From Macrolepiota albuminosa (Eukaryota > Basidiomycota > Agaricomycetes > Agaricales > Agaricaceae): DNA of 64,000 nucleotides. The notes below the pieces were generated by a model, which did no database searches, was not told the DNA's origin, and saw nothing but the letters and a program-made list of their open reading frames with translations. The translations under genes were made by a program, and so were the position numbers. The stretch covers positions 248,001 through 312,000 of the forward strand of contig JAMWFC010000087.1 in assembly GCA_027475525.1 (NCBI GenBank). Direction: 5' to 3'. Numbering within the stretch: the first letter of the stretch is position 1; each line of letters starts with the position of its first letter. Below are positions 17,929 through 63,033 of this stretch, piece after piece.

Positions 17929-18082
17929 GGGGGTGGCATACCTCCCAAAAGAGTTTTCGTGGCTTGAAAGGGGCGTTGGCATCAGCAGCCATCAGCTGGC
18001 CATCAGGGGGTGGCATACCTCCCAAAAGAGTTTTCGTGGCTTGAAAGGGGCGTTGGCATCAGCAGCCATCAGCTGGCCATCA
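17929..18082. repeat. 77-bp perfect tandem duplication (assembly overlap)
   Basis: Copies are 17929-18005 and 18006-18082, identical. This is one of twelve with the same period; see the finding on 77-bp duplications. It lies inside the left inverted arm, and the right arm has only one copy. Confidence 0.9.
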
Positions 18083-18599
18083 GCTGGCATCCGTTGGAGT
18101 TTGTCGGCAGCTGTCGTGACTCGCTAGCATCCGTTGGCATCCGTTGGCATCCGTTGGCATCCGTCATGCATCCGTCGGCATCTGCCAGATATCTGCTGGT
18201 ATCCATCGGCAACTCCCGGCATCGTCCAGCATCAGGGTGGGAGAAAAGAAAACAGGGTGTGTGGGTGTCCGCCGCATGGGGTGGCGTCTCAGAGAGCATG
18301 GGGGGTGGCAGAAGAGGGATGGGAGTGGGGAGAAAGAGGGGGAAGGGGGAAGGGGAGGAGCGTGGGTGTCTGCTAGTATGCCAGCGGACGTAGCAGACAT
18401 CGGACATCAGGTCAGGGGGGAGGAGGGAAGCGGGGTGCATGTGGTGGACGGGGGTGGCGTGTGAGGTAGTGTGGGGAGTGGAGAGGATGGCACTGGGGAG
18501 AAAGAGGGGGAAGGGCGGAAGAGGGTGCATGAGTGTCCACTGTCTGCTGGCATGCCAGCAGATGGTAGCGGACGGTAGCTGATGTCAGCGGTGCAACCA

Positions 18600-18678
18600 G
18601 TCCCAGTGGTTCAGTGGAATATTCATTTATTGATATTCAATATTGTGTACAGTGGTGGGTTCTACTCCCCCTACTCCA
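18600..18678 (+). repeat. tRNA-like module (A/B boxes) in the left arm
   Basis: A-box-like TGGTTCAGTGG and B-box-like GGTTCTACTCC are separated by an AT-rich centre with the shared GGAATATT and TTGATATT blocks. The mirrored copy is at 32265-32327. Confidence 0.65.
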
Positions 18679-18697
18679 CCTTAATGGGGACTAATGG

Positions 18698-18851
18698 TGT
18701 GTTTTTATATGGGTGCATTTTTGCTCTACATATACATCGTACTGACCTGTAGTATGCGCCTGTGGTAGTAGATCTGTGTTTTTATATGGGTGCATTTTTG
18801 CTCTACATATACATCGTACTGACCTGTAGTATGCGCCTGTGGTAGTAGATC
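18698..18851. repeat. 77-bp perfect tandem duplication (assembly overlap)
   Basis: Copies are 18698-18774 and 18775-18851, identical. Same period and interpretation as the other eleven. Confidence 0.9.
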
Positions 18852-19142
18852 TGACCAAAACTCTAGCAATTACTGAAGCGGGATAGGATGGAGGAGTTGA
18901 CACATGAGATCATTCCAGTTCACATGACAAGTGATGATACACCAGGGCTGACTACCTTTGTTACAAAGACCAGCACAAAGGTAGCCAGCCACAGTGTATT
19001 ATCAACTGGTCATGAGCACTGGAATGACCACATGCGCGAACTCATCCATCTTATGCCACTGCAGAAATCTCTGGAGTTTTCAACGGATCAAATTCATGAT
19101 GCTAGCAGACGTCAGCGGCCTGCTGCTATTATATAATGTGAA

Positions 19143-19218
19143 CTAGCGGGAGTCAAACCCACCTCTTGTGCACAATATGAAATATCAATTTATGAATATT
19201 CCATTATACCACAGGCGC
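19143..19218 (-). repeat. tRNA-like module at the inner end of the left arm
   Basis: On the minus strand the A box is TGGTATAATGG and the B box GGTTTGACTCC. The centre matches the copy at 31868-31947 closely, marking the inner limit of the paired arms. Confidence 0.65.
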
Positions 19219-19434
19219 TTACTACAAGTCAGGATGGTGTTCATGTAGTGCACAAACGGACCCATACAGAATTTGAACGGATAGAGATTTTACTGCAACT
19301 GGTGCATCTGTATTGAATTGACAATATTAAACTGATATTTATTTACACCATAGAAGTATACAGGAAAGAGGAAAACCATGGTTTGTAGCGGAATATTAGA
19401 CTGATATTGATTTACACCATAGCATTATACATGA

Positions 19435-19514
19435 AGCATCTGTGGTGTAGTGGAATATTTCCTATTGGTATTCCTTGTATCTTGCATTAGGTGGGTTCGA
19501 CTCTCCCTAGTGCA
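19435..19514 (+). repeat. tRNA-like module 1 of a three-unit array
   Basis: A box TGGTGTAGTGG, B box GGTTCGACTCT, and a T5 run at 19534-19538 about 20 nt downstream, as expected for a pol III terminator. It belongs to an array of imperfect units with module starts at 19435, 19595 and 19807. Confidence 0.7.
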
Positions 19515-19594
19515 TTGACATCGAACTCAAATATTTTTGACCACACACAGAAGAATAGGCTGATGTTTATTTACATCATAGCAATGTACAGTAA

Positions 19595-19673
19595 GCATCA
19601 GTGGTCTAGTGGAATATTATCTATTGGTCTTTATTATGTCTTGCAGTAGACGGGTTCGATTCCTACTAGTGCA
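19595..19673 (+). repeat. tRNA-like module 2 of a three-unit array
   Basis: A box TGGTCTAGTGG and an exact consensus B box GGTTCGATTCC. A T5 run follows at 19695-19699. Upstream shares the ATTTACA.CATAG block with the neighbouring units. Confidence 0.72.
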
Positions 19674-19806
19674 TTTACGTCAAACTGTTTAGAATTTTTG
19701 ACCTGCTTAGCTAATTGTTATTTACTACACAGTATGATAAACAAAGTAAGGTTCTAATTTAAACAGGCTGACACGATATCTATTTAGACTATAGCTGTGT
19801 ACATTA

Positions 19807-19887
19807 AGCTTTGATAGTCTAGTGGAATATTATCCATTGGTGTTCATTGTGTGTTGCAGTAGGTGGGTTCGACTCCTGCTTAGTGCA
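19807..19887 (+). repeat. tRNA-like module 3 of a three-unit array
   Basis: A box TAGTCTAGTGG and B box GGTTCGACTCC; a T5 run is at 19910-19914. The downstream flank (GGCCTGCTTAGCTAATTG) repeats that of module 2. Confidence 0.7.
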
Positions 19888-20080
19888 ATGAACATTAAGA
19901 CGTTTGCTATTTTTGGCCTGCTTAGCTAATTGTTATTTACTAAACTGTAAGATAAACAAGATAAGGTTTTGTCAAGCAATAAATCAAACTTCTTTTGTAA
20001 TTTAAACAGGGTCACATGATATCTATTTTCAGAACTTGCTTCGTGTAAAGTTCTTGTCTGTTTCTTTAATCCTCCATCTG

Positions 20081-21962
20081 CCATGTCTAACGAAGAACTC
20101 CACCAACGGGTTGTTGATGCGGATGTTTGAGTATTATACCTTGCTCTCAGAGGAGACCTGCAACAACTCAAAGCACAGCAGAGGGACCTGGTAAGATACA
20201 AGCACTCCTGTCTAATAGACATGCACTAATAGTCGTCCTGTAGATTGACATGTGGTTCAAGGTTAGGGACGTCAAGGATGACAAGAAACTCCTCCTTGAT
20301 GCCAGGAGAAGTTTCATCAACAAAGTTATCCTGCTCTCTAGAGCAAGCTTTCTGACGAGGATATGACCAGGCGGTTGAAGGACACTGCGAAGAAATGGAC
20401 CCAGAGGAGCAGAAGGGGGGAAGAATCAAGTGGGGGTGAAGAACGACCTGATCTGTCAACCGAGGCCAGTCCGTTGACGGCACCGGCATGAGAAGACCGG
20501 ATAGGTCATAGGCTGGCAGCAGGAGATTTGTCTGGTCCGTCACCGATTCTGAAGAAGAGAAAATGACCAAGTCCTCCAGCGGCAGGAGATTTGTCTGGTC
20601 CGTCGCCAAATCCCAAGAAGCTAAAACGGGTGACCTATATTGGTCAACCTCCTCCTGGTACCTATCGTTGACAGAAGGAGCAGGAGGACAAGGATGAGGA
20701 CAAGGATGAAGAGGAAGAGGAAGAGGAAGAACAAGAGGGCAGGATACCAAAGGGGGAAATTACTGGAGAGATGCTGTTGGGCAGGTATCTGAGGACAGCA
20801 CCTCGTCGCGAGGGTCAGCACATCAACCCCCCTTGCCAATATTGCACAAGTAAGCGGCTACAGTGTGTCAGGACAAAGGGCGGCACCGCATGCGATCCCT
20901 GCCGGCTCATTCGCAAACGAACATGCAGCCTGACGATTGTCAAGAAAACCGTCAAGCCCAGCAACAAGGGAAAGGGGAAAAAACCACTGAGAAAGAAGTC
21001 AGTGACAATTATTGAGAGTGATGACAGTATGAAACTCTTTTCCTGCTCAAATAGCTAACCAATAGTTAGCAGATGAACCAGCCAGTCCAATCACAGGACC
21101 ATCAAAACCGTCCATCCGTCCATCCCAACCGTCGACCTCCAACTGCCCAGCGGATTCTCTTCTGGTCAAGGGAAAGGGCAAGGAGCAGGCAATGGAGTCT
21201 AGTCACAGTGAGGACATTGTGGCTGGTGTAATGGCAGGGGTGGAGAGCCGTTTGGACAGGATGGAGAATGGGTTCCAGGAAGCATTGCGGAATGTTGGAG
21301 AGCAGGTGTGGGACAGGTTTGTCATGGCTGAGGCAAGCTGGTTACCGCATATTGAGGACTTTTTCCGTTGCTACCAGACTCAGGTCGACATGCTCGGTGG
21401 CCGCATGGAAACCCTGCAAACCAATGTTTCTTGTGTGGGTCAGATGCTTGCATCCCACGATGGACGGATCTGTCAGACAGAGGAGCAGATCCGCTATATT
21501 CAGGGTATAGTTGACACTTTGCAGAGTCGACTTCACATCTCCACCTGTCCCTCCAGTCTGTCAGCTTAGGATGATGTGGCAGTGCATCCAACAGGGCACA
21601 GTGGACTTGGACCCATTGTTGAAGAGGAAGAAACCACTCCTGACCCCATTGCTGACCAATCCTCTGCCACTGGTGACACCTCTGCCCTCACCACTGACAA
21701 ATCCCATCACACCGCTGACTTATCCACTCTCACCGTCACTCTGTCCCCACTTCAACAAACATCCTCAGGGATGTCTCCCGCACAAACATCTCCATCACCC
21801 TCTCAACCATCTTCCATTCCTCTGCCAGTCCCTGCCGAGGACCCTCTCCCTGGCCCAAGGGGATGGGCTCGCAGCAACTCCCAAAGTAGTTGGCTGCCAA
21901 TGCAACGGACCCGATCATCCAGTTGGCTTACTGAGAGACAGAAGGCAACAGAAGACAAGTGA
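20081..21962 (+). pseudogene. KDZ-unit gene 1: zinc-cluster-like and coiled-coil protein, frame broken by stops
   Basis: This reads as one gene from ATG 20081. A first exon is followed by a 54-bp intron ending near 20243. A long frame then contains an acidic run and a Cys-rich motif of the type C-x2-C...C...C-x2-C...C (PCQYCTSKRLQCV, then CDPCRLIRKRTC) at about 20830-20930. A coiled-coil segment follows (21192-21530), then a Pro/Ser-rich tail ending at 21962. The frame is interrupted by TGA at 20128, 20489, 20564 and 20669 and by TAG at 21567-21569. The contexts fit lost Arg (CGA) or Gln (CAG) codons, for example KKRK-stop-PSP. Such Cys-cluster proteins commonly accompany KDZ transposons in agaricomycetes in my recollection; DNA binding is inferred, not shown. 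It lies just inside the left arm and reads toward the transposase. Confidence 0.65.
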
Positions 21963-22085
21963 AGATGGATGGTTTAAGATGGACGGTTTGTTATTGTACA
22001 ATATTTTTTGAGAGACAGAAGGCAACAGAAGACAAGTGAAGATGGATGGTTTAAGATGGACGGTTTGTTATTGTACAATATTTTT
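21932..22085. repeat. 77-bp perfect tandem duplication (assembly overlap)
   Basis: Copies are 21932-22008 and 22009-22085. The first overlaps the 3' end of KDZ-unit gene 1. Confidence 0.9.
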
Positions 22086-23994: not shown

Positions 23995-24148
23995 CCAATC
24001 CCGAGGCATTGTGATCCTTACCCCTCAACAAGTTCTGGATCTCCTCGTTTATCTCCTTTGCCATTGTCTGCCCAATCCCGAGGCATTGTGATCCTTACCC
24101 CTCAACAAGTTCTGGATCTCCTCGTTTATCTCCTTTGCCATTGTCTGC
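23995..24148. repeat. 77-bp perfect tandem duplication (assembly overlap)
   Basis: Copies are 23995-24071 and 24072-24148, identical. It splits KDZ-unit gene 2; removing one copy restores the frame between the VVQQTMAKEINEE and LRGKDHNASG parts. Confidence 0.92.
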
Positions 24149-24771: not shown

Positions 24772-24925
24772 CTCTAAAGAAACGCAAGCGACCAAAAACA
24801 ACAGTCATCAGACAAAGGGACCTCATCCTGTTTGCTGAGGAAAGGACACTCTAAAGAAACGCAAGCGACCAAAAACAACAGTCATCAGACAAAGGGACCT
24901 CATCCTGTTTGCTGAGGAAAGGACA
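24772..24925. repeat. 77-bp perfect tandem duplication (assembly overlap)
   Basis: Copies are 24772-24848 and 24849-24925. It lies near the start of the KDZ transposase frame and breaks it. Confidence 0.92.
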
Positions 24926-25015
24926 CAATTCACTCAGAACACACGAGGGTTGCCAGTCCTCATAACACAACGGCTACCACTGGGTCCCGCTCCCATTGTA
25001 ACTGGTGCACCACCT

Positions 25016-25169
25016 GCGGCATTTGCAGATGATGATAACTTTGCACACTTGGACAATAATCCAACGGTAGATGATGTAGATGATACAATGCCGCGGCATT
25101 TGCAGATGATGATAACTTTGCACACTTGGACAATAATCCAACGGTAGATGATGTAGATGATACAATGCC
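25016..25169. repeat. 77-bp perfect tandem duplication (assembly overlap)
   Basis: Copies are 25016-25092 and 25093-25169, identical, in the KDZ transposase N-terminal region. Collapsing it rejoins the frame through VDDVDDTMP. Confidence 0.92.
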
Positions 25170-25568: not shown

Positions 25569-25722
25569 GTCAGGGCTCTTGAGGACTACGAGCGGAAAAA
25601 GGACATTCAGGAGCAAGAGTTTCTATGACTTGAATATCAACTGGAGTCAGGGCTCTTGAGGACTACGAGCGGAAAAAGGACATTCAGGAGCAAGAGTTTC
25701 TATGACTTGAATATCAACTGGA
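25569..25722. repeat. 77-bp perfect tandem duplication (assembly overlap)
   Basis: Copies are 25569-25645 and 25646-25722, identical, within the KDZ transposase gene. Confidence 0.92.
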
Positions 25723-28629
25723 TGTTGAACTTCTATCAGCGGATAGCGACCCAGGACATCCGGCAGCACATCCATCCATGACTTCAGATTTCCTGAGCAG
25801 ACTTCAGGATGCCAGCCTTGATCAAATCATGGAAGAGGAAGAGCAAGAGGACCCAGAGAATAATGTGCCAATAGAAGATATTCCAGAAGATCGGCCAGCC
25901 ACGAACGGGTTCCGTATGGACAGATATGATTGCTTTGGGAATCCAATACAATGAATTGTTCACACAACTGGAGTACACTACATCACTGTCATTTCATGTG
26001 AGTGTTCTGGGATGGATGTCTTGGTGGAGGATACCATCTGCTCGCAGCTGGTCCCCAGTACATTTGATTGGACACAAACATATTTTACAATGGCTGTGCT
26101 GGACGACTTCTGTCTGACAAATCTAGAGTGCAAAGCATCCGCCTACCAGTACTGGCAGAAAATTGCAAGAATAACTTCCCCGATTGCATCTTCTGGTGAG
26201 GTGGATAACCTTTACCGCGAGCTACAACAAATTTCTCGTTCATGGCAGTGGCTGAAGAAGTTGAAGTGGGCAGGCTTTGGTCATGATGAATCAAGGCATC
26301 CCATGGTGCCAGACTATGGTGAACTTGCAATATTCTGTCCAACTTGTCCTCAACTGGGAGTCAATCTTCCATCCAACTGGGAAGAAGATCCCGTCTGGTG
26401 GAAGTTCAATCGTTCTTTAATGATGAATGGCAACTTCAAGATGGATCACGTCCGACATTCTAATCCTGCTCATGATGTATGACATTCAGAAGGCGGTGGT
26501 ATGATGGCCAGGAGGGATGAGCTCACTCACTATCTCAAGTGTGCAAAGTAATAGCCAACAGTGAGTGACATTTTTTAACTCTACCTGTCCGCCATCTGCT
26601 TATCAATTTAATCCTGTCCATTGGCCGTCTGCTAGACCTCCGTCTGTCCAGGAAGCCGCCTGTGAAAACACATTCAAAGCTATTGAAAAGGCCCTGATGA
26701 TGAACAAGTCATGCGACATTACTGGTATTGTTGCAACGGCATGTACACGGCACGGCTGCTTTGCTCCTAATAGTGTAACAAACTTGACCCGTGGTGAAGG
26801 CCAGGTTTACACAGACTTTTCCATCACATGGGCAGTTAAGACAACCAACATGGATGGGATTCAGCATCTCCTACTGGTATATGACATAGCATGCCAGTGG
26901 TGTGTCAAATTTTCTGAATGGCTTGCCGAGGCCGGAGAAGTCCTGCCAGATAATCTACTCGTGGACTTTGCAATAGGACTTCTTCATGTCCATGGGCATA
27001 AGGAGGATTGTTTTTTCCGCTTTGCCCCGTCCTTCATTCCTGGGGCCGGTCATTTGGCTGGGGAGATAATTGAAAGTCTCTGGTCTACACTAAATGAAGT
27101 CTCACAGATGGCCTGTACGGCTACCTTGGCACATCGGGCAGAAATCCTTGATGATCACATGTGTGACTCAAACTGGAAGAAGCTGCTTGACATGGTTCCA
27201 TTCCTATGTCGAAAGTACAGGACTGCTGTTGAGATGAGAGATGCAGCCGTTCAATATTTCACCGAGCGATCCGTCGGAATATCAACGGATTTACTAACAA
27301 GCTGGGAAGCTGGAATAGCTAAGGCAGAAAGGCTCAGAGAGGAGGGAAACCATAAAGCAATGGATATTCTGAAAGCTCATACAATGACCTTCAATAGTGC
27401 AAGTGAAGACCAAATAGCAGCAGACAGTGGAAACTACTCAACGGATGTTGCAGTGATGGATATTCATTCCTTCTGGATTCAACTTGCCCTTGACATTGAG
27501 GAGCAGCAGTAAGGTGTATTGCTGATGGCCCAAACTATTTCACTAATTGGAAGCTCAGAATTGCAATTCAGGACCAGGTTCGCCGTTTGAATCGGCATGC
27601 AAGCAATGATGATCAGCAAAAGATCGAGGCGGAAAGAGAAATATTAAGGGTTTGACTCAATGTCCTTGCTGCTTCTCAGGACAGGAGCAGGTTCATTGCT
27701 GGTGGAAGGCGGACTGCCCCCCTGGAACCGGATGAAGTTCCCGGAGCCTTTGACGACAATGAAATGGCGGAAGATGGACAACCAGCGGATCCGCTGGTAC
27801 CGCTGGCGGATAACCTTGAACCAACGGATGTAGTTGTTCCAGAAGATTTTGAAATCTCCTTTCCATCTATGATCATGGGTAATGTCTCACCATTAACAAT
27901 GATAGAGCGCAATCTGCGCTTGATTCAAATTGAAAGGCTCCTGCAAGCCCTTTGGGAATTCATTGCAGAGAAATCATTTCTATATTCTCACATCGTCCGG
28001 GTCGCCCCAAGCAAGAATGTGAAAACTCGAGCTCACGCATCTCTTCAAAGAATTCAGGCCTCAATCCTAGTGAAGGCTCGTGCCTATGCACGATGCCGCA
28101 GTGCTCTGCTGTGACTGGGATCGGACCCCAGCATTCAGAGAAAGTATCCAGTTCTACAGAAAGCGGATTTGAATGCAAGCACAGCTATATGAGATCCCAA
28201 CATTCCTGGTTCATCAAGGATCAAGGTATCTTGGATATGGCACTCTAATTCTGATGCAGAAAATGAATCTGCAACTATTTCTGAATGTGAGTCCTCTTGT
28301 TAACATTTCCGTTATCATTACATCCATTCGTGAACATATCTCTTTAGTTAATTGTGTTCATTATCTACATGCTAGAGCACAACACAACAGATGGACAGAG
28401 GAATGTCAGCTTGTCACGAGTGAAATGGAGTGAACAGTTTGGTATTTCTTCAACCAGGCAGATATTTGGTCGAAGCATGGTATGTCAGTGAAGAAAAGAG
28501 GTCTCCAGTCATATGCCCACAAAAAGGTGGCCATGTGGCAAGAATTGGCCTCAATGACAATTGATAAATCTAGGCGGGTGCTTCCTGATTTTATTCCCCC
28601 CCAAACTGCAAGAGATCCGCTGTGAAAAT

Positions 28630-28898: not shown

Positions 28899-31047
28899 AT
28901 GGTGTCTACCTCTGTACCACACAATGTCATGTCCCAAGCTACTGTACTAGAAAATTTGCAAGAGGTTGTTGACTACATTGAGTCACGCCTCATTGCAGCA
29001 CTTTCCATATTTGGCAATCTTGCACCAAGTCTTGAAGCAGAAGAGGCATGGATTATCCAGCATCTAGACAAGGAGTTGGTAAGATAACTTCAAAATGTAT
29101 AAATATATTAGGATCTGACTGTGTGCCATAAAACTTTGTATTGTCATATCTGGGGGCTGCATCACTGAATAATGTGGTCTGCAATGTCCCAGACATTATC
29201 AAAAGCATGAGCCGATTTTTCCCTCTCCAAAATCAGCAAACTTTGCCCACAGAGATCCTGGAGTTTGTTGATGGCTGTCAAGGTCTTATCAGGAATCTGT
29301 ATGGCTGTGATTGGTGGAACCACATTGGCTGAGAGGATGTTCAGGTCTTAAGCAATGAAACGCTGGAGCATTGCCTTCTCGTACATCAGCAAGGCTTCCA
29401 CTCTCTTGAAAGCTTCTTGGCATGCAACCGCCGGCCACCCATGACATTGCCATCCGATGGATTGGTGTCCGTCCCAGCACCAGACGATTTGCTCCGTGTG
29501 TTTGCAGGTAGTGGATCCACCAGGGGCCACCAGCGGACGCTTCTAGCCCTAGACAAGTGGCGGTCACTGGATAAGATGAAACATATGCCAACGGCCAACG
29601 ATATGATCCGCCTGTTTGCTAGCAGCAAGTCCATTGCTGCTTCCGTTGTCAGTTCCATTGCCAGGTCTATGGATCCTGCTCGGACGGGCCAATTGACAGG
29701 CATCGAGTCCCATACCAACAGTATTGATGGTGAGCAGCCTGATCCTCAAGACTGCCTCTCCATGGCCCATCCTACCACTCTCCCTGATGTCAACTCTCTC
29801 CAATGGCCATCCTTGACACATATCGAACCCTTGAATGCACAACATCCATTCCACCACCTCTACAGTCAGAGTAAACCTGGACTGGTGTATGGCCCTACAA
29901 TGGAAAACTCTCACATTGTGGTTCAACTGGCATCCCAACTTCCTTCCGCCCCAGCAGCTCATGTCCGTGGGACATTCAGGGAGCTGGGGGAAACTGACGA
30001 CGACCAGGTGGATATCCCTAATCCATCCATTAGTGACCCTGACTTAGAGGGTATCCCTTCTTTGTTCATTCCTGCGGAAGAGGAGACAGAAGACAAATCT
30101 TTGCCACCTTTGTTCATTTCTGCGGAAGAGGAGACGGAAGACGAATCTTTGCCACCTTTGTTCATTTCTGCGGAAGAGGAGATGGAAGAGGATTCTTTGC
30201 CTCCTTTGTTCATTCCTGCGGAAGAGGAGACCGAAGACAATGATTTGCCTCCTTTGTTTATTCCTGCGGAAGAGGAGACCAAAGACAATGATTTGCCCCC
30301 TTTGTTCATTCCTGCAGAAGAGGAGATGGACGATGATTCTTTGCCACCTTTATTCATTGTTGGTGAAGGAGCAGAAGGACTAACAGCGATGGAGACCATG
30401 GTGGCCGGTGATGGCGGACAAACGGAAGTCCAGAGCAGTGGACGTATGGCGACTAAGGACAAAGAAAACCTTCCGCCACTATTTCTTGTGATGGCAGAAG
30501 AGACAGATGGAGGCATGGCAGCCAATGACAAAGAAAATCTTTCACTGCTTTTTGATGTAACGGCTCTTCAAATCCCGTCTTCCCCCTTCCAACAATCTCC
30601 TTCTCCAACCCTACCTACTGGTAACAATGTCTGGGAGTGGGAGGAATATGAGGCACATATGACTTGATGTGAGGATCAGAGAAGAATTAACGAATTGTAT
30701 CAACAACGTGAGTATAATTTGGCACTGGTAATCATAGTTAATTTATTTCAACAGAACAAGAATTTCGCGCTAGAGCAAAACATGGTCGATGTAGGCCCAT
30801 TGGCCCTTTCAATCAAGCTGGTCGTACTGATGATGTGTCTGTTGATATGTCAGAGTCACCCTCACCATCTTCATCATCAGGCCTGATAGCAAACTATGAA
30901 GACATCACACTTCCCAGACCTCAGGGGCCATATACACCAGACAACTTTGCATTTTTGACAGCAGACTACCTACTTGATGAGGATTTGTTCTATTCAGATG
31001 CATTACATGAATCTAATGAAGAGGAGGAATACACATTGGACGAGTAA
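28899..31047 (+). pseudogene. KDZ-unit gene 4: acidic protein with LPPLF repeats
   Basis: A first exon starts at ATG 28899 (LENLQEVVDYIESRL, coiled-coil-like). An intron near 29083-29130 is followed by a long frame to 30667, then a 46-bp intron and a last exon ending at 31047. Residues encoded by about 30050-30370 form six copies of a 16-residue acidic unit LPPLFI(P/S)AEEE.(E/D)., a 48-bp DNA repeat. Two in-frame TGA codons interrupt it, at 29330-29332 and 30665-30667. Otherwise the coding frame is long and clean, so decay is recent or mild. No domain is recognised. The repeat resembles a short linear motif array that could bind a partner protein; that is inference. It lies between the transposase and the right arm. 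Confidence 0.6.
30052..30372 (+). repeat. 48-bp coding minisatellite, about six units
   Basis: The tandem array inside KDZ-unit gene 4 encodes LPPLF-acidic units. Substitutions are mostly conservative and the frame is kept, so it evolved under coding constraint. Confidence 0.85.
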
Positions 31048-33740: not shown

Positions 33741-36525
33741 TAAGGTTAATACATGCTGAAGAAGAACTAAATACAATCAAATATACAGATAGATCCAACA
33801 TCAAGTCACATTTTAAGGCAATGCATACTGCATGCTCAAAAGTAAACAATCAGGGGGCAGGGATTACTGATGAATAGTTTAAAACATACATCATTGAATC
33901 CATGCCAAGTTTCTGGGTGGCAGTGACTGGCACATTGATAATGGAGGAAAAGTCAGCAAAAGTAATATCAAGACTCACTATGCATGCTCTGTTGCTCCAT
34001 GGACTGAATGCAATAGCTCCATTAAAATCGGTTTAGGCATTGTCAATGCAAACAGGCAGACAATGAGGAGACAAAGATAAGCCAATGTGTGAGAACTGTA
34101 AGCAAACAGGACATATCAAGGAGAAATGTTTTAGAAAAGGTGGCAGATTAGAAGAACAGTTTCCCGACTGGTGGAAGAAGAACAATAAGACCACTCAAAG
34201 CACGACAACAACAATAACAACAACACTTCAGTTAAACTCTACATCCACTGCTGCAACAAATGCAAATGGTTTACTACAGGCCAGCATGACAGTAGTATTG
34301 GCTAACAATGCAAACAATAGTCACTGTCTGGCATTCACGGCATCCACTGCATCAGAGTCAGGAGTGACATGGAATATTACTACATATGCCAATTCCACAG
34401 CGAGTTGTCATTTCTTCATGAATAAAGCAGATTTTGTGACATATAATGCACCATCACTTGGGATAATAGTAGGATTGACTGTAAAAGGGGGCGAGTTCAA
34501 AACGCATGGCTGTAGAAAGGTTCGGAAATGGGTTCAGTATAATAGTGAGGTAATTGAGCTCACGTTTGACAATGCATTACACACATCAGATCTAACTTAT
34601 AACCTAATATCCATGGGATCTTTGGTACAAAAAGGAGTTCAAATAGAGATTGGTGGAGATGAAGCAACCCTTTTTACAATAGACAGGACACCTTTTTTAC
34701 ATTGTCCAATCAATGGAACTATGTTCACAGTTGAGTTTGTGGCCCTATCGCCTACAGCTATGGCAACAATGTTGTTATATCACCCAGTTGATTTCGAGAC
34801 CTGGCACCAACAGTTAGGACATGTGGGGGAGAGTACATTACAACGAATGACTTGCAAGGGGGTAGTCAATAGTTTAGACATAACAAAGATGTCAGTAACA
34901 GAGAAATGTGAAGACTGTATAATGGGGAAACACGTATGATGACCTTTTGACACCATCATTGAACCTGAGCATACACCATATGAGTGCATGGCTTTTGAAA
35001 TATGGGGACCTGCATAAGTTTTAACAACTGGTGATAAGCTCTCATGCTCATTGTTGTTGACCAAGGAGGAGCAGAATGCGATGCATGGTATCTTTCACAC
35101 AAGATGAAAAAAGCAATGGTGGAATGCTTGGAGGTCTTTGATAAGCATGTGAAAACACAAACTGGGTACAGGATCAAATGTGTGAGGACAGATGGCGGAA
35201 TGGAATTCATGAACGAGTTATGGAGCATGTACTGTGGGAAATGAGGTATAATTTATGAGATGACCCCACCACATTTATTGGCAGCCAATGGAGTTGTTGA
35301 AAGAAGGAACAAGACAATTCTTGACTTAGCTTGGAGTATGTTGCATGACTCACAACTCCCTGCTCATTACTGAGGAGAAGCTACATCAACTGCCATCTAT
35401 ATACTCGATGTGATCCCAAGCTCCAGGCACCCAGACAAGATGTCTTTTGAAATAAGAATAGGGAAAAAATCTAATGTTTCACACTTACAGCCATTTGGGT
35501 GTATGACATATGCAAAGGTGCTGAAGGCAGACGGTGGAAGTAAACTTGAAGTCCAATCAGTGAAGACCGTCTTGTTCAGGTATTTTGGAGTAGGAGACTA
35601 TAAGCTACTCAAACGACCTACTGGGCGCATATTCCAATTCTAAGATATCATTTTTGAGGAGGGGAGTGCAAATCGCACAACAAGGGATGAGCATCAGAAG
35701 AAGCCAGTAGACTTGATAGATGTCTTGGGAGTAACTACTAGAACAACACTCCTTGACAGCACAAACAGTGTTAATACCATCACTCCAGATCCACCACCGA
35801 TTATGATCACTAGTGGAGAAAACAATTAGCTGACAGAACTGAGGAGGTCAGCACAACTTGCTACCAAGGTAGCACATGACCCTGAGGAAAGTCATAGTGA
35901 CATGTCAGAGGGGAACTTGTTTGACCTGGAGAGTAAAGAAGAGACATTTCGAGCCATTCCAGATGCACTGTCAGCCACAGTTACAGAGACAGATGAGATG
36001 TGGGTTCCAAAGTTGTACTTAGAAGCAATGAAAAGACCAGACCTTTGACAAGGACCAATGGACAAGGAGATACAATGGATGCATGATCAAAAGATTTGAA
36101 GGCTAATTGAGCGACCTGCTGGTGTGAGGACAATGAAGAATAGATGGACTTTTGCACTTAAGTATGATGCCAACAGAAAAATCATTGGATGCAAGGCACA
36201 GCTGGTAGCAAAAGGTTTTTCTCAGATACTAGGAGTCAATTATTTTGCAATGTACATATTGGTGGTCAAGTACAAATCATTATAAATCAATCTTGCTGTA
36301 GGCATAGTACTCAATTATGAGATATGGCAGATTGATTATACTAGTGCTTACTTGAATGTCTCCACTCAAGTCCTAATATTGATAGAGCAACCTGAAGGAT
36401 ATGAGGTGCAACTGAGTGATGTTATTTGAGTCAACATCAACATAGGCCGTATGAGTTTGGAGGAGTATGGATGATACAAATGACAAAAAGAGTTCAGTAT
36501 CCTTGGTGGACAAAGCTATATATGG
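33741..36525 (+). mobile_element. Copia (Ty1) gag-pol remnant
   Basis: The plus-strand order is gag helices (about 33760-34030), then a CCHC zinc knuckle (CENCKQTGHIKEKC, 34088). Next are a protease-like region and the GAG-pre-integrase block (WHQQLGHVGESTL...CEDCIMGKH, 34800-34936). The integrase core has VVDQGG, DGGMEF and NGVVERRN (35040-35310). Reverse transcriptase follows (NRWTFALKYDAN, KAQLVAKGFSQ, IDYTSAYLN, 36120-36350), up to an LVDKAIYGT block where the next inverted repeat begins. Stops interrupt it at 34937 and 34940 (two TGA where RR precedes PFD), 35242, 35371 (Trp expected before GEAT) and 36046 (Trp expected before QGP), so it is inactive. The RNase H and LTRs are missing. 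Confidence 0.9.
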
Positions 36526-37404
36526 TACAAGGAATCAATCAGTTGGGAGGTCTGTTAGCGGTGCACTGATGCAGGAACATGGTGACATCAGAAACTTGGA
36601 TGGAAGTGGCAGCAGACACTGGCCAGCTCATGCCGACATGGAATGAAATAATTGCGATGGTGGTATTAACTTTAGAAGAAGAAATGATGACAGCAGAGGT
36701 GGGTGAAGCCACAGTAATAGCAGCAATGACAGGCAGAGCGGCAGTGGCAACAGCAGCAGCAGCAGCAATGACAATCATGGGAGAGACAGAGGAGGAAGAT
36801 GAGGTTGGGAGGAGGCCCCTATCGTAATTTCTTGCTTGCAAACCTAAATGTTGTACATTGTATATGTCGTATTGTATATGGTTGAACTTTGTATATAGTG
36901 TATGACAGATGTAGATAGTGTACTATAGATGTAGATAGCGTACTACATTGGACTAACAGGCTATACATCAGGACAGTGTGATACCAATAATGTTTCATTG
37001 CAGATGTTATAAGTGATTGGATAACTTGGACATGCTAATAATCAATTGTATTTAACATTTATTATATAAGCCTACGTTTCACAATCAGAAACTTGAAGTA
37101 TTAAACAGTGTAGGGGAATAACAAATCATAATACTATGCTACCGATTAAGGTGTTTTGGTAATCCTTTTACCTACTGGCAATAAAGTTCAGTTAGCTGAA
37201 CATTGACGATACAGGTTGGCATAAAGACATTATATACAAAAATATGAATGGTTGAGGTTGACTAGTAGTAAGCACTACTGGCACCCAATTGTGTTTCCTT
37301 GGAAAAAGGTAAAAAGGAAACCTGTTATGCCATTTCCAATGTATTAATTTCTGATAGAAAAAGTCTTCAGACAAAGGAAATTTGCCAGTTTCTATTGTAA
37401 AATA

Positions 37405-37558
37405 TAGCTACAAAACAGGCAACAGGTTTCTTTGACCTTTTTTTCATCAGAAACAGATTATGGCCTCAGTAGTGAAGTATTTAGCTACAAAACAGGCAAC
37501 AGGTTTCTTTGACCTTTTTTTCATCAGAAACAGATTATGGCCTCAGTAGTGAAGTATT
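37405..37558. repeat. 77-bp perfect tandem duplication (assembly overlap)
   Basis: Copies are 37405-37481 and 37482-37558, identical; the right inverted-repeat arm has a single copy. Confidence 0.92.
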
Positions 37559-40930: not shown

Positions 40931-42734
40931 AATAAGAACAAACACAGTCACATGGTGGCAAAAATTGAAGACATTTTTCCCACACATAGTCCGCTGCACA
41001 GAAAAACGGGGCCCACACTTGTCTGAATGATAGCTAAAGAACAAGAGCACCTCAAAGGTTGAGAATAGTATTAACAGATAGTGTTGAGAGAATAGAAACA
41101 GCAAAATAAGAGAATGATAGAAGAAATAAGGAAATGAATGAAAGGAGATAACAGATAGTGTTGAGAGAATAGAAACAGCAAAATAAGAGAATGATAGAAG
41201 AAATAAGGAAATGAATGAAAGGAGAGTGAAGGAATAAGGAGTGAAAGAAGGAAGAAATGAGGAGTCCCCTGACAGCTAGATGTTCTTACTAATGTACCCA
41301 GTATTGTACAAGGGCTTGTCAACTCAATTAAAAGGTTAACCAGACCTCATCTAGTACTCAGAGATAGTGCAAGGCAGCGCTTTTGCACATAGCACCCCAT
41401 TTTAGACTGCTCCAACTGAGCAGCATTTAGAGTTTGTAGTAGACAATACTGCTGGACCAGGACAGTCATTATTGATGACAACTCAGCATCAGCAAGGACT
41501 GGTAGTACAGGTTAGTGGTGAGAACAATGAGGTCATACAGACAGAACAGGTGCCACCAGCACCTAAGAAACAGGAGTTGCACCTCAGGAAAGTTCTGGAC
41601 TTAGAGTCAGAACTGGAATCCTCAGATGATAAGGAGAGTAAAAAGTTGCTTTTGAGCTTGTCTATCCAGTTACAACTAGTTTTTTTGGACCAATATGAAA
41701 GCATCTGCAGCTTTATATAGTAAAGCATTTACAATTGTTGGCTGCTAGAAGCCATGATGCACCTTAGCCAGATTCAACTGAATATATTGAATTGTTTATA
41801 TGCATTTTTGAACTCAAAGAATTAAGTGTCTCAAGCATAAGGCAGCCTGAGGATCAGCAATCTCAACAGCCACACTGGCCAACTTAGTGGAATGCAAAAT
41901 AATTGTGTGCTGATGAGTGCCAGTAATTGCAGATGCAATGAATCTATTGAATGCATCTTGTCAGGCAAATGAATCACAGCAAGACTATATTTGGCATCAG
42001 AATGCTGGAAACCATCAATGCAGTGTTAGTGGAGTGTCTCAACAAGTGTTATCTGAGGTTGAGACTGTGATAACTACTCTATCTAAACAGATGAGCCAAT
42101 TGTAGCTTAGGAGGTTAACACACCTTAGAAGCAAGTCACTATCAAGGAAGGAGTGGATGAATTTCATGCTTTGGAGGAACATGTTAGACCTTGTTGCATA
42201 GTATGACATGTCCACCTGGTGGACAATTGGCAAAAATATGTTAATTATCAGATAATGTGCAATCAGGACTTGTGCAACCATGAAAAGTTGCTCATTAGCA
42301 ACCAGAAGATAGTATTACACCTGTCAATGATATGCAGCAACAGTTTGCTGCTCAAACTGCTGAACTAGATAGAAATCTGAATAGTAGTGATGAGAATAGG
42401 GGGCATAATCATTGCAACAATGATTATGTAGGCTATGATTGTAGTAGAAATAACAATTGAGATGACAGAGATTGTTGTGGCAGTAGTAGACACTCTAGTG
42501 CACCACCAGTGTACCAAGATGTGAGGTAGCAGCCTGTATCATGGCCAGAACAAGCAGGCAATAAGTACTTGTATTGCAGCTCTCAGATATTCTCAATGTC
42601 TGCTCCTCATGAGTTGTGTTCCGAGATCTAGAATAGATCAAGGTTTTTCTGTGCAGTGGACTATGTGTGAGAAAAATGTCTTTGATTTTTGCTGTCATGT
42701 AACTGTGTTTGTTCTCATTACTTCCTTCAGGTAA
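40931..42734. other. Centre of the second inverted repeat; retrotransposon-like remnants
   Basis: This unpaired spacer contains a frame at 41472-41720 (VPPAPKKQELHLRKVLDLES) that recalls the acidic N-terminal part of basidiomycete gypsy gag proteins. Further short broken pieces lie downstream to about 42650 with many stops. I cannot assign a family with confidence. A 77-bp duplication lies at 41072-41225. Confidence 0.35.
41072..41225. repeat. 77-bp perfect tandem duplication (assembly overlap)
   Basis: Copies are 41072-41148 and 41149-41225, identical. Confidence 0.92.
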
Positions 42735-43640
42735 GCATGGGAATAATGTCTTCAATTTTTAACGTCATGTGATACTACCGTTTGTCTGTATGGTTACTTA
42801 GTCAGCAGTAGACTATGTATGTGTAAAAGTAATGTCTTCACTTTTTAATGTCATGTGATACTACCGTACGTCTGTACAGTTACAGAGATGCGTGAAAATA
42901 ATGTCTTCGATTTTTAATGTCATGTGATACTACCATACTACATGGTTACAGAGATGTGTGGGAATAATGTCTTCAATTTTTAACGTCATGTGATACTACC
43001 GTTTGTCTGTACGGTTACTTAGTCAGCAGTAGACTATGTACATGTGGGAGTAATGTCTTCACTTTTTAATGTCATGTAATACTACCGTTCGTCTGTATGG
43101 TTACAGAGATGCATGGGAATAATGTCTTCAATTTTTAACGTCATGTGATACTACCATTTGTCTGTACGGTTACTTAGTCAGCAGTAGACTATGTATGCAT
43201 GGGAGTAATGTCTTCACTTTTTAACGTCATGTGATACTACCGTATGTCTGTACGGTTACAGAGATGCGTGGAAATAATGTCTTCGATTTTTAACATCATG
43301 TGATACTACTGTACTACATGGTTACAGAGATGTATAGGAATAATGTCTTCCATTTTTAACGTTATGTGATACTACCATTTGTCTGTACGGTTACTTAGTC
43401 AGCAGTAGACTATGTACACGTGGGAGTAATATCTTTACTTTTTAACATCATGTGATACTACCATTTGTCTGTACGGTTACAGAGATGCATGGGAATAATG
43501 TCTTCACTTTTTAACATCATGTGATACTACCGTACTATGTGGTTACAGAGATGCATGGGAATAAGGTCTTCAATTTTTAATGTCATGTGATACTAGTATG
43601 GTTACATATATGTGTGGGAATAGTGTCTTCCTTTTTAACG
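42735..43640. repeat. Minisatellite array, right, with higher-order structure
   Basis: About 13 units share AATGTCTTC..TTTTTAA.GTCATG and GTGATACTACC. Three subtypes are interleaved: one with TTAGTCAGCAGTAGACTATG, one with a CTGTACGGTTACAGAGATG block, and one shortened with ACTACATGGTTAC. Neighbouring units differ by point changes. The array is in inverted orientation to 39640-40930. Confidence 0.85.
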
Positions 43641-46600
43641 TCATTTGTTCCATAGCTTTACTATGTTAATATTTGATATCTACATTTGCCAGAATGTAGC
43701 CATGGTTGGGTCTGTTTTAACACATTCTCTACACCCACTCAGTCCGTAATGTTCCAATCAAACAATGTTTTATTTGGCTGATGTTCTTTCCTTGCCAGAT
43801 GTATTGGATGTCCAGTCGACCCATAGATCCAGTGGTCTCTGCAAAATAGGCCTATTTTGATGACTAATTGTGAGTCTTTCTATGTCCTGCCTAGTACAGG
43901 CATGACAGGACACGATATTAGATCACATACAATAGCCGCCACGTGAAAATCATATATTGGAGCAGACACATGCATTATGAGTTATTTCCTTGGCTGCCTT
44001 CTGTGGAAAGCGATCCCTGAATATCAGGGCTGAGATACCCCCCGAAAGATTTGGCATATCGCCACTATCTAATGAACACCTATTGTCATTTGAGAGGTCT
44101 GTTATCCAGTGCAATAGATATATGACAACAAATCATTGATTTACTAGATCATGGCAATTACTGATTTCGACAGTCTGCCATGCGACAAGCCGTCATTACG
44201 ACTAATTATTAATGTGCCACACCTTAACATGGAGCAACAACAGGCTATGCTCAAATTTAAATGTTCTTATTCAGACTCTTCCGACAGTGATTTGGATTTC
44301 CATACTACTTACTTCAGACTCTACTCCAAATCGTATGTGTTTTCTCATGGTTGTTCACCATCGCTGTTTCTATATCCCTTATTGATGTGTTGGTGACAAA
44401 TACAGGTTGCCACCACCGTATCATTGACATCATGATTCCAAGTATCTCCTCGCCTAAGCAGAGGTATTTATATGTTTTGTTCCCCAAAACCAAGACACGT
44501 ACTACTCGATTTGATGTCTTCTCCAATCCGAGCTTCTCTACGTTATCCCCTTATCTTTTCCTTTATGTCCTTCTCTGCTTCCTCATGTGCCCTTTCATGG
44601 TGCTTCTCCCTCTAAGTATGATGGCAGAGACAACTCAGCATGCTACGACTCTTACCAGCAAGACATTTGCTGTTTAAGTGGCTGTTGTGTGTTGACGAGC
44701 CATAATCTAGAGTGCTCCCAGGATGCTCGTATAATGATGTTACAGACTTCAGCATTTTCAAATGCTATTATGGACTGAGGTTTTGTTGTTTGCACTAGCA
44801 AGACATACGTTCAAAGACATCTAACATGTTCTTTCATCCTCAATTTACTACCACATGGAGCACTACCACAATATCCTATTGTGGCGCCCTTACACATCCT
44901 CCCACCACCCCTCTGGAATTAAGATGCGCGCCATGTCTTGTCAGGGGATTTTCCAGGTGACGGAGAGGTATTCAGATGTGCTGTATTATATTAGACCTGC
45001 TCATCTCATTTTTCTGTATGTTTTGACCTCTTGGTTTGCTTGTTCATTGACCTTGAGTCAGGAGCTATACACATCGTGACAAACGGACCCATCTCACAAC
45101 AAAAGCTTTCGATAGATGAGGAATTCTTGTTGCCACATTCCATACTCACAAAAATCAATGGCTTGATGAAGTTTGGACTTACTCAGATGCTTCAAAAGAG
45201 GTCAAGTGGAATGCAAAGCTTATCATTGCCAAACAGATAGTATGCTGCGAGCCTAATGAGCCTGATTTCACTTCATGTGGAAAGGATTTGGTATGTGAAG
45301 TGTTCTTGACATTCGAACTTGCTCAATGTTATGCGCAGTGCGGCAAAGTAATGATACCTCATTAAGTAGATTTGGGCATAGTCAAGGCCAATATTTTCAT
45401 GCTTGACTAGAGGTATGTTCACTTTCTGCATATTGAAATCCTCATATTAAATGTTATATTTCTAGTTCTTTTTATTGTAGTTAGTAGAATATCTATATAT
45501 ACATTCTATACCTGTAGCTGGACGTCAAGACTAAACACATGCTGCTGGGTTTATGCAGTGATCAGTGTCCTCCATCATTGGAGCCTTAGGCGCACTTCTC
45601 ATAAGGAACATTGAATGGTACGTTGTCTTTGCTCTATTGTCAGTAAAGCTCTTATTGATTAAACGTCTTTAGTGGAATGGTTTCATAATAATAGTAGAAG
45701 ACCCTTTATTAATCATTGGTATAGGTGCAGCTAATTATTACATTAATACTTCACTACTGAGGCCATAATTTGTTTCTTATCAAAAAAGGGGCAAAGAAAC
45801 CTGTTGCCTGTTCCGTAGGTAGGTTTTACAATAGAAACCGGCAAATTTCCTTTGTCTGAAGACTTTTTCGATTGGAAATTGATACATTGGAAATGGCATA
45901 ACAGGTTTTCTTTTCACTTTTTTTTTCAAGGAAACACAATTGGGTGCCATTAGTGCTTACTACTAGTGTCAGGGGACTCCTCGCTCTTGTCTGGTCACAA
46001 TTTCCTTTTCCAGAGTTTCCGGAGAACTCCAGAGCATTTCCCGTGCCCCGGAGTTCTCCCGGCCTCCCAGAGCTAGCCGTTGGATACTGTACAGTCGTTC
46101 CCACACCCGTCTGCCCCCGTACTGATGTGCCGCACTGGCAGAGGAATCCTTAGACTTGTTCTCTTTGGATTTCCCTCTGCCAGGTGATTAGTTATTGATT
46201 GTACTGTCGTTACTGGCTCTAATATACTTTGGATTTCCCTCTGCCAGTTGTGTGATAGTGCCGCAACCTCCAGAGGTCGCCCTTACAACTAGTTAACCGT
46301 TCATATTTTTGTATATAATGTCTTTATGCCAACCTGGATCGTCAACGTTCAGCTAACTGAGCTTTATTGCCAGTAGGTAAAAGGATTACCAAAACACCTT
46401 AATCGGTATCATAGTATCATGATTTGTTATTCCCCTACACTGTTTAATACTTCAAGTTTCTGATTGTGATAACGTAGGCTTGTTAAATACAATTGATTAT
46501 TAGCATGTACAAGTCACCTGATCACTTATAATGTCCACAATGAAATATTGTCGGTATCACACCGTCCTGATGTATAGCCCGTTAGTCCAATGTAGTACAC

Positions 46601-47030
46601 TATCTACATCTATAGTACACTATCTACATCTGTAGTACACTATATACAACGTTCAACGATATACAGTACAACATATAAAATGTACAACATTTAGGGTTGT
46701 GAGCAAGAAATTACGATGGGGGCCTCCTCCCAACCTCATCTTCCTCCTCTGTCTCTCTCACGGTCATCGTCGCTGCTGCTGCCGCTTCAACCATTGCCGC
46801 TGTTGCTACTGTCCCTCTGCCTGTCATTGCTGCCATCACTGCGGCTTCACCCGCCTCCGCTGTTGTCATTTCTTCTTCTAAAGTTGATACCAACATTGCA
46901 ATTATTTCATTCCGTGTTGGCATAGGCTGGCCAGCGTCCGCTGCCACTTACATCCATCCAAGTTTCCGGTGTCACTGCGTTCCTGCATCAGTGCGCTACT
47001 AACAGACCTCCCAACTGATCGATTCCTTGC
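43641..47030. repeat. Right arm of the second long inverted repeat
   Basis: Partner of 36526-39750 in reverse complement. Homology reaches GATTCCTTG at about 47023, which also covers the last codons of the minus-strand zinc-cluster-like gene, so the arm may extend into that gene and the left arm may be truncated. A segment at about 45966-46280 (TTCCAGAGTTTCC region) is unique to this arm and may be an insertion. Confidence 0.8.
44151..45412 (+). pseudogene. Gene-like region in the right arm, unknown function
   Basis: Plus-strand counterpart of 37893-39151. It starts at ATG 44151 (MAITDFDSL...NVPHLN), then SLIDVLVTNTGCHHRIIDIM and HGASPSKYDGRDNSACYD. The end pieces near 45110-45400 include the CGKDLVCEVF block in a shifted frame. 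The pieces lie in several frames; no complete model and no known domain. Confidence 0.35.
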
Positions 47031-54348: not shown

Positions 54349-54379
<31 letters not shown>

Positions 54380-58930: not shown

Positions 58931-61900
58931 ACCATGGATATTGTAGGAAATTTTTGTTCTGGCACAGGACAGAGATATGTGGAGGAAGCAAGTTGTGCGG
59001 TGTGTGGTCTCCTACATCCTGTAGCCGATATGAATCCTTTTAAGAGTATGAAAGGTTATCTAGATGTACCCTGCGTTCCAGGAGTCATCAAAATAGAATG
59101 ATTATCTGATACGGATCGTGTTAGGGAGCTGAGAGGACCGGTAATTGATCACTCATGTAAACACGTTTGTTGATTGTGCAGACAGCAATTGTTCAATGGG
59201 CTCGTTCCAAAAAACGCGCTAGCCAATGGCTTTTGGATTGGCCCTATACCTGATGTGTTAAAACGCCTTAATTGGATTGAACAGATATTAGTTGCTAGGG
59301 TAAGAAAGTCCTTGTGTTACGCTCATGTTTCAGCCTCCGGTCTGAGCAAGATGAAGGCGCATCTTATTGCTTTTGAGTCACCTATTCAGAAGGTATATCA
59401 AGTCCTTCCACCTCCTGTAACCGACCTCGATGATGTGATCGCAATTTTATTTTCTGGTCCTTGCAAGCCATCTGCTAAGGAGTTACAGAGGCTACCTCTG
59501 CTTGTGAGCAGATGGAATGTTCAGCGTGCATTAAAATGGCTCAAACTTAATCATTCTTCATATAGCGATCTGGAAATATCATACAGCAACTTAGAGGGAT
59601 ATCCTGAAGATGTTCCTCCTGTGTCCATTGTTCATCGCCAAAGCGCTGACGAGGCTGGTACGATAGACCCACCAGTATATGAAGATAATAAGGAGTCTGG
59701 TGTCAATGTGGGCGATTGCCCCTTTGTTGTCCACGGCCTCACCGGTGATGCTTTATCAGCCAAGACTACGGATGAACTTAAAGGCCTTGCAATGCAACAT
59801 TGGATGTCTAACGGAAAGGCTCTGCATATTGGTCACTCTGCATACCCCAAGAATATATTCAGCGATCCGGATTTGTATCCGCAAATGTTTCCTTGGCTGT
59901 TCCCCTATGGTCTGGGTGGCATAGACAGTAACAAGTGCGGTGTATCAGTGCGCGCTCATAAAGCCAACTTGCTTATGTATCATGATAAATGCTTTCAAAC
60001 AGATACTGGATTCCCGTTCGCTGCTTTTAGCCATGAACAGGTAAAGGCTGCTACTAGTGGAGGCTATCTAGCAACAGAACATGCAAACTTTAACGACATA
60101 TCTGACCGTCTTACAACTGTCAATCCAAAAGTGTTTTCTGACCTTTCACAAAGAATGGCAGCTGGAGATATAGTGAAGCCGGTTACAGAGGATGAAAAAG
60201 CTTGTTTCCGTGTAATAGATGACTTGGATGTAATTTCTGGTGATGTCGAAGGGTCTGCTGTTTCCAAAAAACACATGCGGAATGAGATCTGGTCCCTTGT
60301 CATAAGCAAAGGTGCTCCTTCTTGGTATATCACCTTATTGCCTGCCGATGTAAAACACCCTATATGTCTTTATTATGCAGATAGCAAGACGTCCTTCACG
60401 CCATCTGTATTTCCTCAAATCAACACCGTTGAACCTATGAATGAAGAACGTAACTCTTCTTACTGGAAAGCTGTTGTTACAGTGAAGCGGGATGAGGTGC
60501 TGAAGAGCTGAAATTCCAGCATACCTGCATGCAGTGGTAAGTTACCAGGCAGCGTACCAGAACTACCGGGACATGTCGACATAGTAGATAGAAAGTATCT
60601 TCAGAAGATATATGTGGACGATAAATGGGAACCTACTATCGTTATTATATCTTCAGACTATGGGCTGAACAAAGAACAGCTGAGAGTGTTCTGCATTGTG
60701 GCTAATCACGCAACGTCATATATGCCTGAGCAACTTAAATTGTATATGGGAGGAATAGGAGGCACCGGAAAAACCCAGGTGCTCCGAGCCCTCATCAAGT
60801 ATTTTGAAGCTAGAGGAGAGGCATATTGTCTGGCTGTGGTTGCACCTACCGGCACTGCTGCATTGCTTATAGGTGGCTCAACAATCATTTGATGTTTGGC
60901 ATTAATGACATGGTTGGTGTATTGAAGAAACAACTCACTCAAATTAAAACTCATTTACTAGGTGTCGAATACATATTTTTTGACGAAGTATTTATGTTAT
61001 CGTGTTGAGACTTGTATAAGATTTCCACAAGACTGGCTCAGCTATCCGGTAGACTAGATATCCCTTTCGGTGGTATGAACATGGTATTTGCAGGTGATTT
61101 CACTCAGTTGCCCCCTGTCGCTGGGCATGAAGGATCGGCGTTATATAGTAGAACTGTAGGTTTAAATACCAAAATGTTGAAGGATCAGGGGTCTGCCATA
61201 GGCAAGGCTGTATGGCATCAGGTAACGACCGTTGTCATATTGCATAAAACCATGAGGCAGAAAACTCAGTCTATGGAGGACGCAGCTTTGCATACCACGC
61301 TCAAAAACATGAGGTATAGAGCATGCACCAAAGAAGACGTGAAGTTTCTTAAAAGCAGATCATTGGCCGTCTCTAATAGTTGCCCATCTATATCCAATAA
61401 ACAGTTCAGAAACGTTTCTATAATCACTGCACAAAATGTAGACAAAGATGCTATTAATATTATAGGAATTACTCGATTTGCAAGCAAGAGCCGTCAGGAA
61501 CTAGTGCATTTCTACAGCAAAGATAGTCCGTCATCCAGAGATGGCAATGCAACAAAAACCCATTCATCTAACTACACGCGCTCTAAAGAAACCACAAGAT
61601 TTTCTCCAACTATACAGCGTGCATTGTGGGACCAACCTCCATCATCTTGCAGTGTTCAAGTTGCGGAAAAGCTGTCGTTGTGTGTAGGCTTGCCTGTTAT
61701 AATCAAGAATAATGTGGCTACAGAATTATGCATCACCAACGGACAGGAAGGTTTTGTGTATGGTTGGAAAAGTTGCATCGGATTGGCCAGACAAATTATG
61801 CTGGATACGTTATTCGTACTACTCAACAATCCTCTGCAAAGAGTAAAAATCAATGGACTTCCCGGTAATGTGGTTCTGATTGTACATACAAGCGTGCATC

Positions 61901-62072
61901 TTAAATGTAGACTCCCTAGCAACGACAGCGTGTCTTTGTCTCGATCACAGGTAGAGGTATTGGTAAACTACGCCATGATGGATTACGCGAGTCAAGGAAA
62001 AACTAGACCTTACAATCCAGTAGACTTAACCAAGTGTCAATCGCACCAAGCCTACTACACTGCACTATCCCA

Positions 62073-62226
62073 CAGTGCTACTGCTGCAGGAACGCTCATC
62101 ATATGAGGATTTGATGCTAACAAAATACAAGGCAAAGCGAGTGGCGCATCAGTGCTACTGCTGCAGGAACGCTCATCATATGAGGATTTGATGCTAACAA
62201 AATACAAGGCAAAGCGAGTGGCGCAT
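62073..62226. repeat. 77-bp perfect tandem duplication (assembly overlap)
   Basis: Copies are 62073-62149 and 62150-62226, identical. Collapsing it joins the helicase end to the KASGALHREFRDLELL block. Confidence 0.93.
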
Positions 62227-62487
62227 TGCACAGGGAATTTCGTGACTTGGAACTGCTCAATGAAATAACCAAACTCAGATATATGAACCAGCTCCCTAAA
62301 AGTTTTGTCGATTCACCTAGACAATCTGATCTAATTCATTCATTTAGACAATGCAAACGAAAAGGTTACATGCCCCCTAACCTTCATACGGCCTTACATT
62401 GAAGTAACAAGGACCCTTACGATGATGCATCATTCCTGGATATCAAATGGCAGGTTGCTAGTGAAGATAGACCTATTAAGCTACCGC

Positions 62488-62641
62488 AGTCCCCTAAAAG
62501 CAGATTTATTCCAGCTAAGGGCACTCAGCCCATAGTGCATCCTCAACCAATACACAGCAAAATAAGTCCCCTAAAAGCAGATTTATTCTAGCTAAGGGCA
62601 CTCAGCCCATAGTGCATTCTCAACCAATACACAGCAAAATA
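62488..62641. repeat. 77-bp tandem duplication with two C/T differences
   Basis: Copies are 62488-62564 and 62565-62641. They differ at two positions (C in the first, T in the second). This is the only imperfect one of the twelve; it could reflect two alleles or copies joined together. Confidence 0.9.
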
Positions 62642-62879
62642 AACCGGAACCGCGATGATAGTTCACCCAACTTGAAAATTTTAAAAAATCTTATAAGCAG
62701 TAAACAGGAATTAAATTTGGACAGATGTGGAGGACTGGTTGGAACTAAGTGGAATGCCAACAGTTGTGTGTACGATGCAGTGATAACTATATTGTACAAT
62801 ATGTGGCAAGATGACATGTCACTATGGTCGACGACTTTCCGATCATTTGGGACATCAATTATGCAAAGCATGGAAAGCA

Positions 62880-63033
62880 ACTTCTTATCAACACACAAAA
62901 GTAAAATCACACTGGAGGACGCAAGAGAGGATTTGAGAAATTGTATGAACAATCCAACTTCTTATCAACACACAAAAGTAAAATCACACTGGAGGACGCA
63001 AGAGAGGATTTGAGAAATTGTATGAACAATCAC
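62880..63033. repeat. 77-bp perfect tandem duplication (assembly overlap)
   Basis: Copies are 62880-62956 and 62957-63033, identical over the unit, inside the C-terminal domain of the Helitron protein. Confidence 0.93.

Follow-up and report, generated by a model that had tools for sequence, protein, structure and literature searches.

A 64-kb window of the Macrolepiota albuminosa assembly GCA_027475525.1 (contig JAMWFC010000087.1; C72:248001-312000 in our coordinates) contains twelve tandem pairs in which a stretch of exactly 77 bases is written twice, head to tail. Judged from the assembly sequence alone, these pairs are almost certainly seams left by the assembly process and not real DNA. 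Three observations carry this conclusion: a sharp spike at unit length 77, which accounts for 39 of the 40 perfect tandem duplications found in a sample of the assembly; the position of the unit edges, which coincide with points where repeat copies branch in 15 of 17 testable pairs (1.6 of 17 in a matched control); and the breakpoints of related elements, which were set independently of those in the window. A first-pass annotation of the window had read the pairs as assembly joins, and its reading is supported both by the length spike and by the branch points, a test that it had not contained.

Results and discussion

Tandem pairs of constant length

Eleven of the twelve pairs, none of them assigned to a strand, are perfect. 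They lie at 17929..18082 (maximal matching run of 78 bases), 18698..18851 (run of 79), 21932..22085 (run of 78), 23995..24148, 24772..24925 (run of 78), 25016..25169, 25569..25722, 37405..37558, 41072..41225, 62073..62226 and 62878..63031. The imperfect pair, at 62488..62641, shows two C/T differences, the first copy having C and the second T in each case. At all twelve sites the two copies abut, with zero bases between them, and the longest word common to any two of the units on either strand is 11 bases long. A search for period-77 pairs at an identity of at least 85% over the full unit returned these twelve and no thirteenth in the 64-kb window, and none in its host part at 1-17 kb. The first-pass annotation had counted the same twelve pairs, eleven identical and one with two C/T differences, and had described them as absent from 1-17 kb and unrelated in sequence. 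All of this was borne out, the last point beyond short words; eleven of its start positions also hold, while the last pair, placed at 62880, begins two bases earlier.

The assembly as a whole comprises 100,137,612 bases in 129 contigs. Unit lengths were surveyed in twenty 10-kb stretches, each from a different contig (L009-L028; 197,044 non-N bases), a sample that is not random: the stretches were cut at round coordinates, and 19 of the 20 contigs, all but C1, were known from transposon matches. Of the 40 perfect tandem duplications with units of 20-2000 bases in this sample, the only one not of unit 77 has a unit of 25, and 10 of the 20 stretches contain at least one perfect 77-base pair. With units of 30-300 bases and a relaxed identity of at least 85%, unit 77 gave 46 matches, unit 126 gave nine and five other units gave one each. 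A broad spread of unit lengths had been named beforehand as the outcome that would speak against assembly joins; what the sample holds is the spike. Maximal matching runs in the 39 perfect pairs measure 77 bases in 20 cases, 78 in 13 and 79 in 6, compared with about 22, 11 and 4 expected if each flanking base matches by chance with a probability of 1/4. Set against this expectation, the observed runs indicate that exactly 77 bases are copied each time, with no spread around that length.

Unit edges at branch points in most testable pairs

A duplicated unit that is the vertex of an assembly graph with k=77 should be found again elsewhere, flanked there by another base. This prediction was examined in 336,714 bases of compared sequence, from which L001, L030 and L002 (which overlap the window or L029) and the loci after L041 were left out. 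The compared sequence includes 85 pairs with runs of at least 77; 17 were testable, their unit being present elsewhere, and 68 were without a second copy in it. In 15 of the 17 a neighbouring base changes exactly at the edge of the unit, a count that is the same whether or not neighbours created by a relative's own pair are ignored. In 5000 matched draws, taken from these loci with an equal number of registers, 1.63 of 17 branched on average and never more than 7; of the remaining 77-mers that have a further exact copy, 1368 of 24,433 (5.6%) are branching. Pairs with runs of exactly 77 branch in eight of ten cases.

Six window sites were looked up, and four of them branch. The base following the unit at 23995 is T here and C in all six other genome copies, and that following the unit at 25016 is T here and C in all five other exact copies in the compared loci. 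The unit at 37405 has a single other copy, on C95, preceded by C where the window has A. The unit at 18698 likewise occurs once elsewhere, on C74, and differs either on the left at register 0 (C there, G here) or on the right at register 1 (A there, G here). The remaining two sites, 62073 and 21932, are considered below with the evidence that runs the other way. For 17929, 24772, 25569, 41072 and 62878 the compared sequence contained no second copy of the unit, no genome-wide exact search having been made for these five, and 62488 fell outside the test because its pair is imperfect.

A de Bruijn assembler run with a shared-word length of 77 most likely produced this pattern. Repeat copies or alleles that share 77 bases and then diverge would create a branching vertex in the graph; contigs would end there, and both neighbouring contigs would carry the same 77 bases. 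Such contigs were most likely later joined end to end, by long-read, map or Hi-C scaffolding or within a hybrid pipeline, with the overlap kept, and each vertex was written twice. In graphs of the SPAdes type the overlap between adjacent edges is K, and 77 is among the usual K values; the overlap seen here, 77 and odd, fits a graph of this kind, and we infer a SPAdes-type graph followed by a joining step. Because graphs branch where repeats diverge, such a process would also be expected to spare the host part of the window.

A seam written by some other kind of program, whether one following a k-1 convention at k=78 or a gap-filling or merging tool with a fixed anchor of 77 bases, is a variant of the same explanation to which we assign a small but real share of its probability. 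Any fixed overlap of 77 bases would yield the same length spectrum, whereas the branch-point result speaks more for a vertex in a graph than for an anchor placed arbitrarily; even values of k are, moreover, unusual in assemblers, which counts against k=78.

Cellular, mobile and inherited origins as unlikely alternatives

Real tandem duplications generated by a cellular process, for instance where paired nicks or staggered breaks are filled in and joined, would have to reach a density of about 200 per Mb in the sample, and we consider them very improbable. In their favour, small tandem duplications induced by breaks are real (PMC8355091). The mismatches found in 7 of the 46 sampled 77-unit pairs (five with one, one with five and one with seven, leaving 39 perfect) are also what ageing copies would show. 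A cellular origin is opposed by the lack of length spread among the perfect duplications, 39 of 40 being exactly 77, and by edges that fall on the first base differing from another copy in 15 of 17 cases. To our knowledge, no end-joining process produces a single exact length in sequences that are unrelated, or edges where copies first differ. Break-repair duplications, for which a spread of lengths is usual, were rejected on the same length count, and a motif-driven enzyme was rejected on the 11-base limit to the words that any two units share.

A property of mobile elements, by which KDZ, Helitron or copia-like elements would duplicate 77 bp at the target site or internally, appears more doubtful still. 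A number of the window sites are inside or close to elements of these kinds, and some related loci have a pair nearby. Against this, the same length recurs in KDZ and Helitron regions, in the repeats at 37405 and 41072 and in a Gypsy-like stretch of 63% guanine-cytosine (GC) content (L009); a target-site duplication in particular was rejected, the copies abutting with no element between them; and breakpoints vary among copies of one and the same repeat. Most scored relatives, furthermore, contain a single unit. Genome searches score the best 40 candidates only, and the recount drew on the table rows bearing on each site (75 of 110 for 25016 and 77 of 149 for 62488). On this basis one unit is present in 35 of 39 scored relatives at 25016, with four aligning through both units, and in 37 of 39 at 62488, with two aligning through both.

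A tandem duplication inherited from ancestral transposons and spread by transposition has just as little to recommend it. Pairs in related loci were placed relative to the window site where their runs reached at least 60 bases; L035-L041 were excluded for site 25016, and L045 was left out because a mismatch breaks its run. Of the 29 pairs so placed, three share the position of the window pair, as inheritance would have it: L057 and L058 with 18698, and L043 with 41072. Their units nevertheless differ from the window unit by two, two and six single-nucleotide polymorphisms (SNPs), respectively, and each SNP is present in both of the locus's own copies, which argues against descent from a single old duplication. 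The other 26 breakpoints lie elsewhere, from -93 to +52 relative to the window site, contradicting the simple form of this explanation. Site 17929, for example, has seven related loci with pairs of their own, shifted by -5 to +21. Site 41072 belongs to a short high-copy repeat with 2194 candidates, the 40 scored being biased towards copies that also carry a pair; its relatives have their own pairs, mostly at other positions. Of ten copies of this repeat that were compared, eight contain a perfect pair and the other two a pair with imperfections; the positions form a series, and the SNPs particular to each copy are repeated in its second unit.

A dedicated genome-wide process that duplicates exactly 77 bp about 200 times per Mb, preferentially where repeat copies diverge, such as a fixed-length recombination intermediate filled in at the edge of homology, strikes us as barely credible.

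Observations that weigh against assembly seams

Several observations do not sit easily with an origin of the pairs as untrimmed assembly overlaps. Such overlaps should be perfect, whereas seven of the 46 sampled pairs and the one at 62488 contain mismatches; later polishing must therefore be assumed, and the mismatches could have entered if short reads from sister copies were used for polishing after the contigs had been joined. Two of the 17 testable pairs (L021 at 5674 and L035 at 1589) do not branch. In the window, the sole other copy of the 62073 unit, on C100, has equal neighbours and first differs four bases downstream, so that there is no branch at the edge of this unit; for the 77-mer at 21932 a search at register 0, and not at register 1, found no further exact copy. 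At both sites the sister sequence may have been collapsed or be absent from the assembly. By a repeat proxy drawn solely from the compared loci, 14 of the 39 sampled pairs lie in repeats, compared with 26% of sampled bases; the proxy is weak, with 0.3 Mb representing a genome of 100 Mb, and for most sampled pairs a location in repeats is not shown. Finally, the stretches L010 (C6) and L022 (C78) have 7.0 kb in common, at 89% identity, and contain no perfect 77-base pair; L022 has one 77-unit pair with five mismatches, and a large repeat was here assembled with hardly any seam.

The reading frames give a mixed picture. Eight sites were compared by stop counts in their flanks, with the sequence left unedited. 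A shift of the most open phase by 2, the remainder of 77 divided by 3, is clear at 62073 and 62488; at 23995 and 25016 the phases are compatible with such a shift but ambiguous, at 24772 they do not fit it, and the further sites gave no clear call. At 62073 the upstream open reading frame (ORF) ends inside the first copy, and a single copy would therefore hold the same stop. The proposal that removing one copy restores the frame is thus borne out in part, for some of the sites only.

Repeats and genes around the sites

The duplication sites are distributed among KDZ, copia-like and Helitron ORFs of the window, all on the forward strand. A KDZ transposase ORF (26565..27512; Pfam PF18758, E 1.4e-38) lies downstream of the multi-copy repeat that contains sites 24772 and 25569. 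Pfam matches further identify a copia-like ORF with gag-pre-integrase and Pol_BBD domains (34085..34939) and, as the context of the sites at 62-63 kb, two Helitron ORFs, one with DUF6570 and Helitron_like_N (59174-60511) and one encoding a PIF1-like helicase (61012-62106), the latter being the ORF that stops inside the first copy at 62073. Pfam gave no match for six of ten ORFs in the set that includes these elements, for four of seven in the set with the L009 ORFs and for all nine of a further set, and no tRNA was found in the window.

Two of the sampled stretches are rich in pairs. A match to the window, split into 15 pieces, extends over 7.4 kb of L021 at 96% identity; this stretch, whose first 2,756 bases are N, contains ten perfect pairs of its own. 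L009 (G000:C1:100001-110000) has seven; it contains Gypsy-like ORFs, one with a chromodomain, and its GC content of 63% compares with 37-52% in the other 19 stretches. Bacterial contamination was considered as a source of L009 and rejected: two of its ORFs are pieces of a Gypsy-like retrotransposon pol and a third matches gag, a search of prokaryote genomes with one of the pol pieces returned no relative, and a 3-kb portion has no match in plasmids. In L011 and L026, runs of 100 N may represent scaffold gaps.

Some further repeats were observed in the window. Site 41072 is flanked by tandem arrays at 40674-40823 and 42735-43595, with units of about 66-69 bp and higher-order periods of 155, 221 and 376, which are related to each other in opposite orientation (37-base exact inverted match). 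Repeats of 20 bp at 36890-36947 and 46593-46648, about 9.7 kb apart, are mutual reverse complements (34-base exact inverted match) and are possible subterminal inverted repeats of one element. A 48-bp repeat of about six copies (30060-30358) lies within the ORF at 29417-30667, which perhaps encodes a repetitive protein. The host part contains a perfect 58-bp minisatellite of 3.5 copies at 1108-1309, the one further perfect array in the window (run of 0.9 unit or more, units of 20-2000 bases); it is not of period 77 and lies outside the seam model. One stretch of the host part, 9000-9600, was searched against the genome and occurs in two places, itself and C122:245555-246155 at 99% identity, and may reflect a segmental duplication or an unmerged allele.

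Conclusions

If the rate in our non-random sample (39 in 197 kb) held throughout, the 100-Mb assembly would contain seams of the order of 20,000 in number. These would break the reading frames of transposons, distort repeat annotation and mimic recent duplications or frameshifts; they are to be regarded as no biological feature and should be masked before the genome is studied. We suggest, as a quality check that requires no reads, plotting the unit lengths of perfect tandem duplications and testing the unit at any spike as a branching k-mer.

None of the literature matches listed describes 77-base seams of this kind in its title or the beginning of its abstract. Contig-end overlaps of de Bruijn assemblers of the SPAdes type, where the overlap equals K, have a fixed length at contig ends, as do the units reported here, in which the overlap was apparently left in place. 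False assembly duplications likewise create extra copies that exist in the assembly only; those are usually haplotype copies of kilobase size, whereas here tens of bases are repeated at constant length. Small tandem duplications at staggered breaks resemble our pairs in being head-to-tail and without a common motif. The likeness to the class treated in PMC8355091 ends there: the pairs described here show no spread in length, and their edges fall at the branch points between repeat copies.

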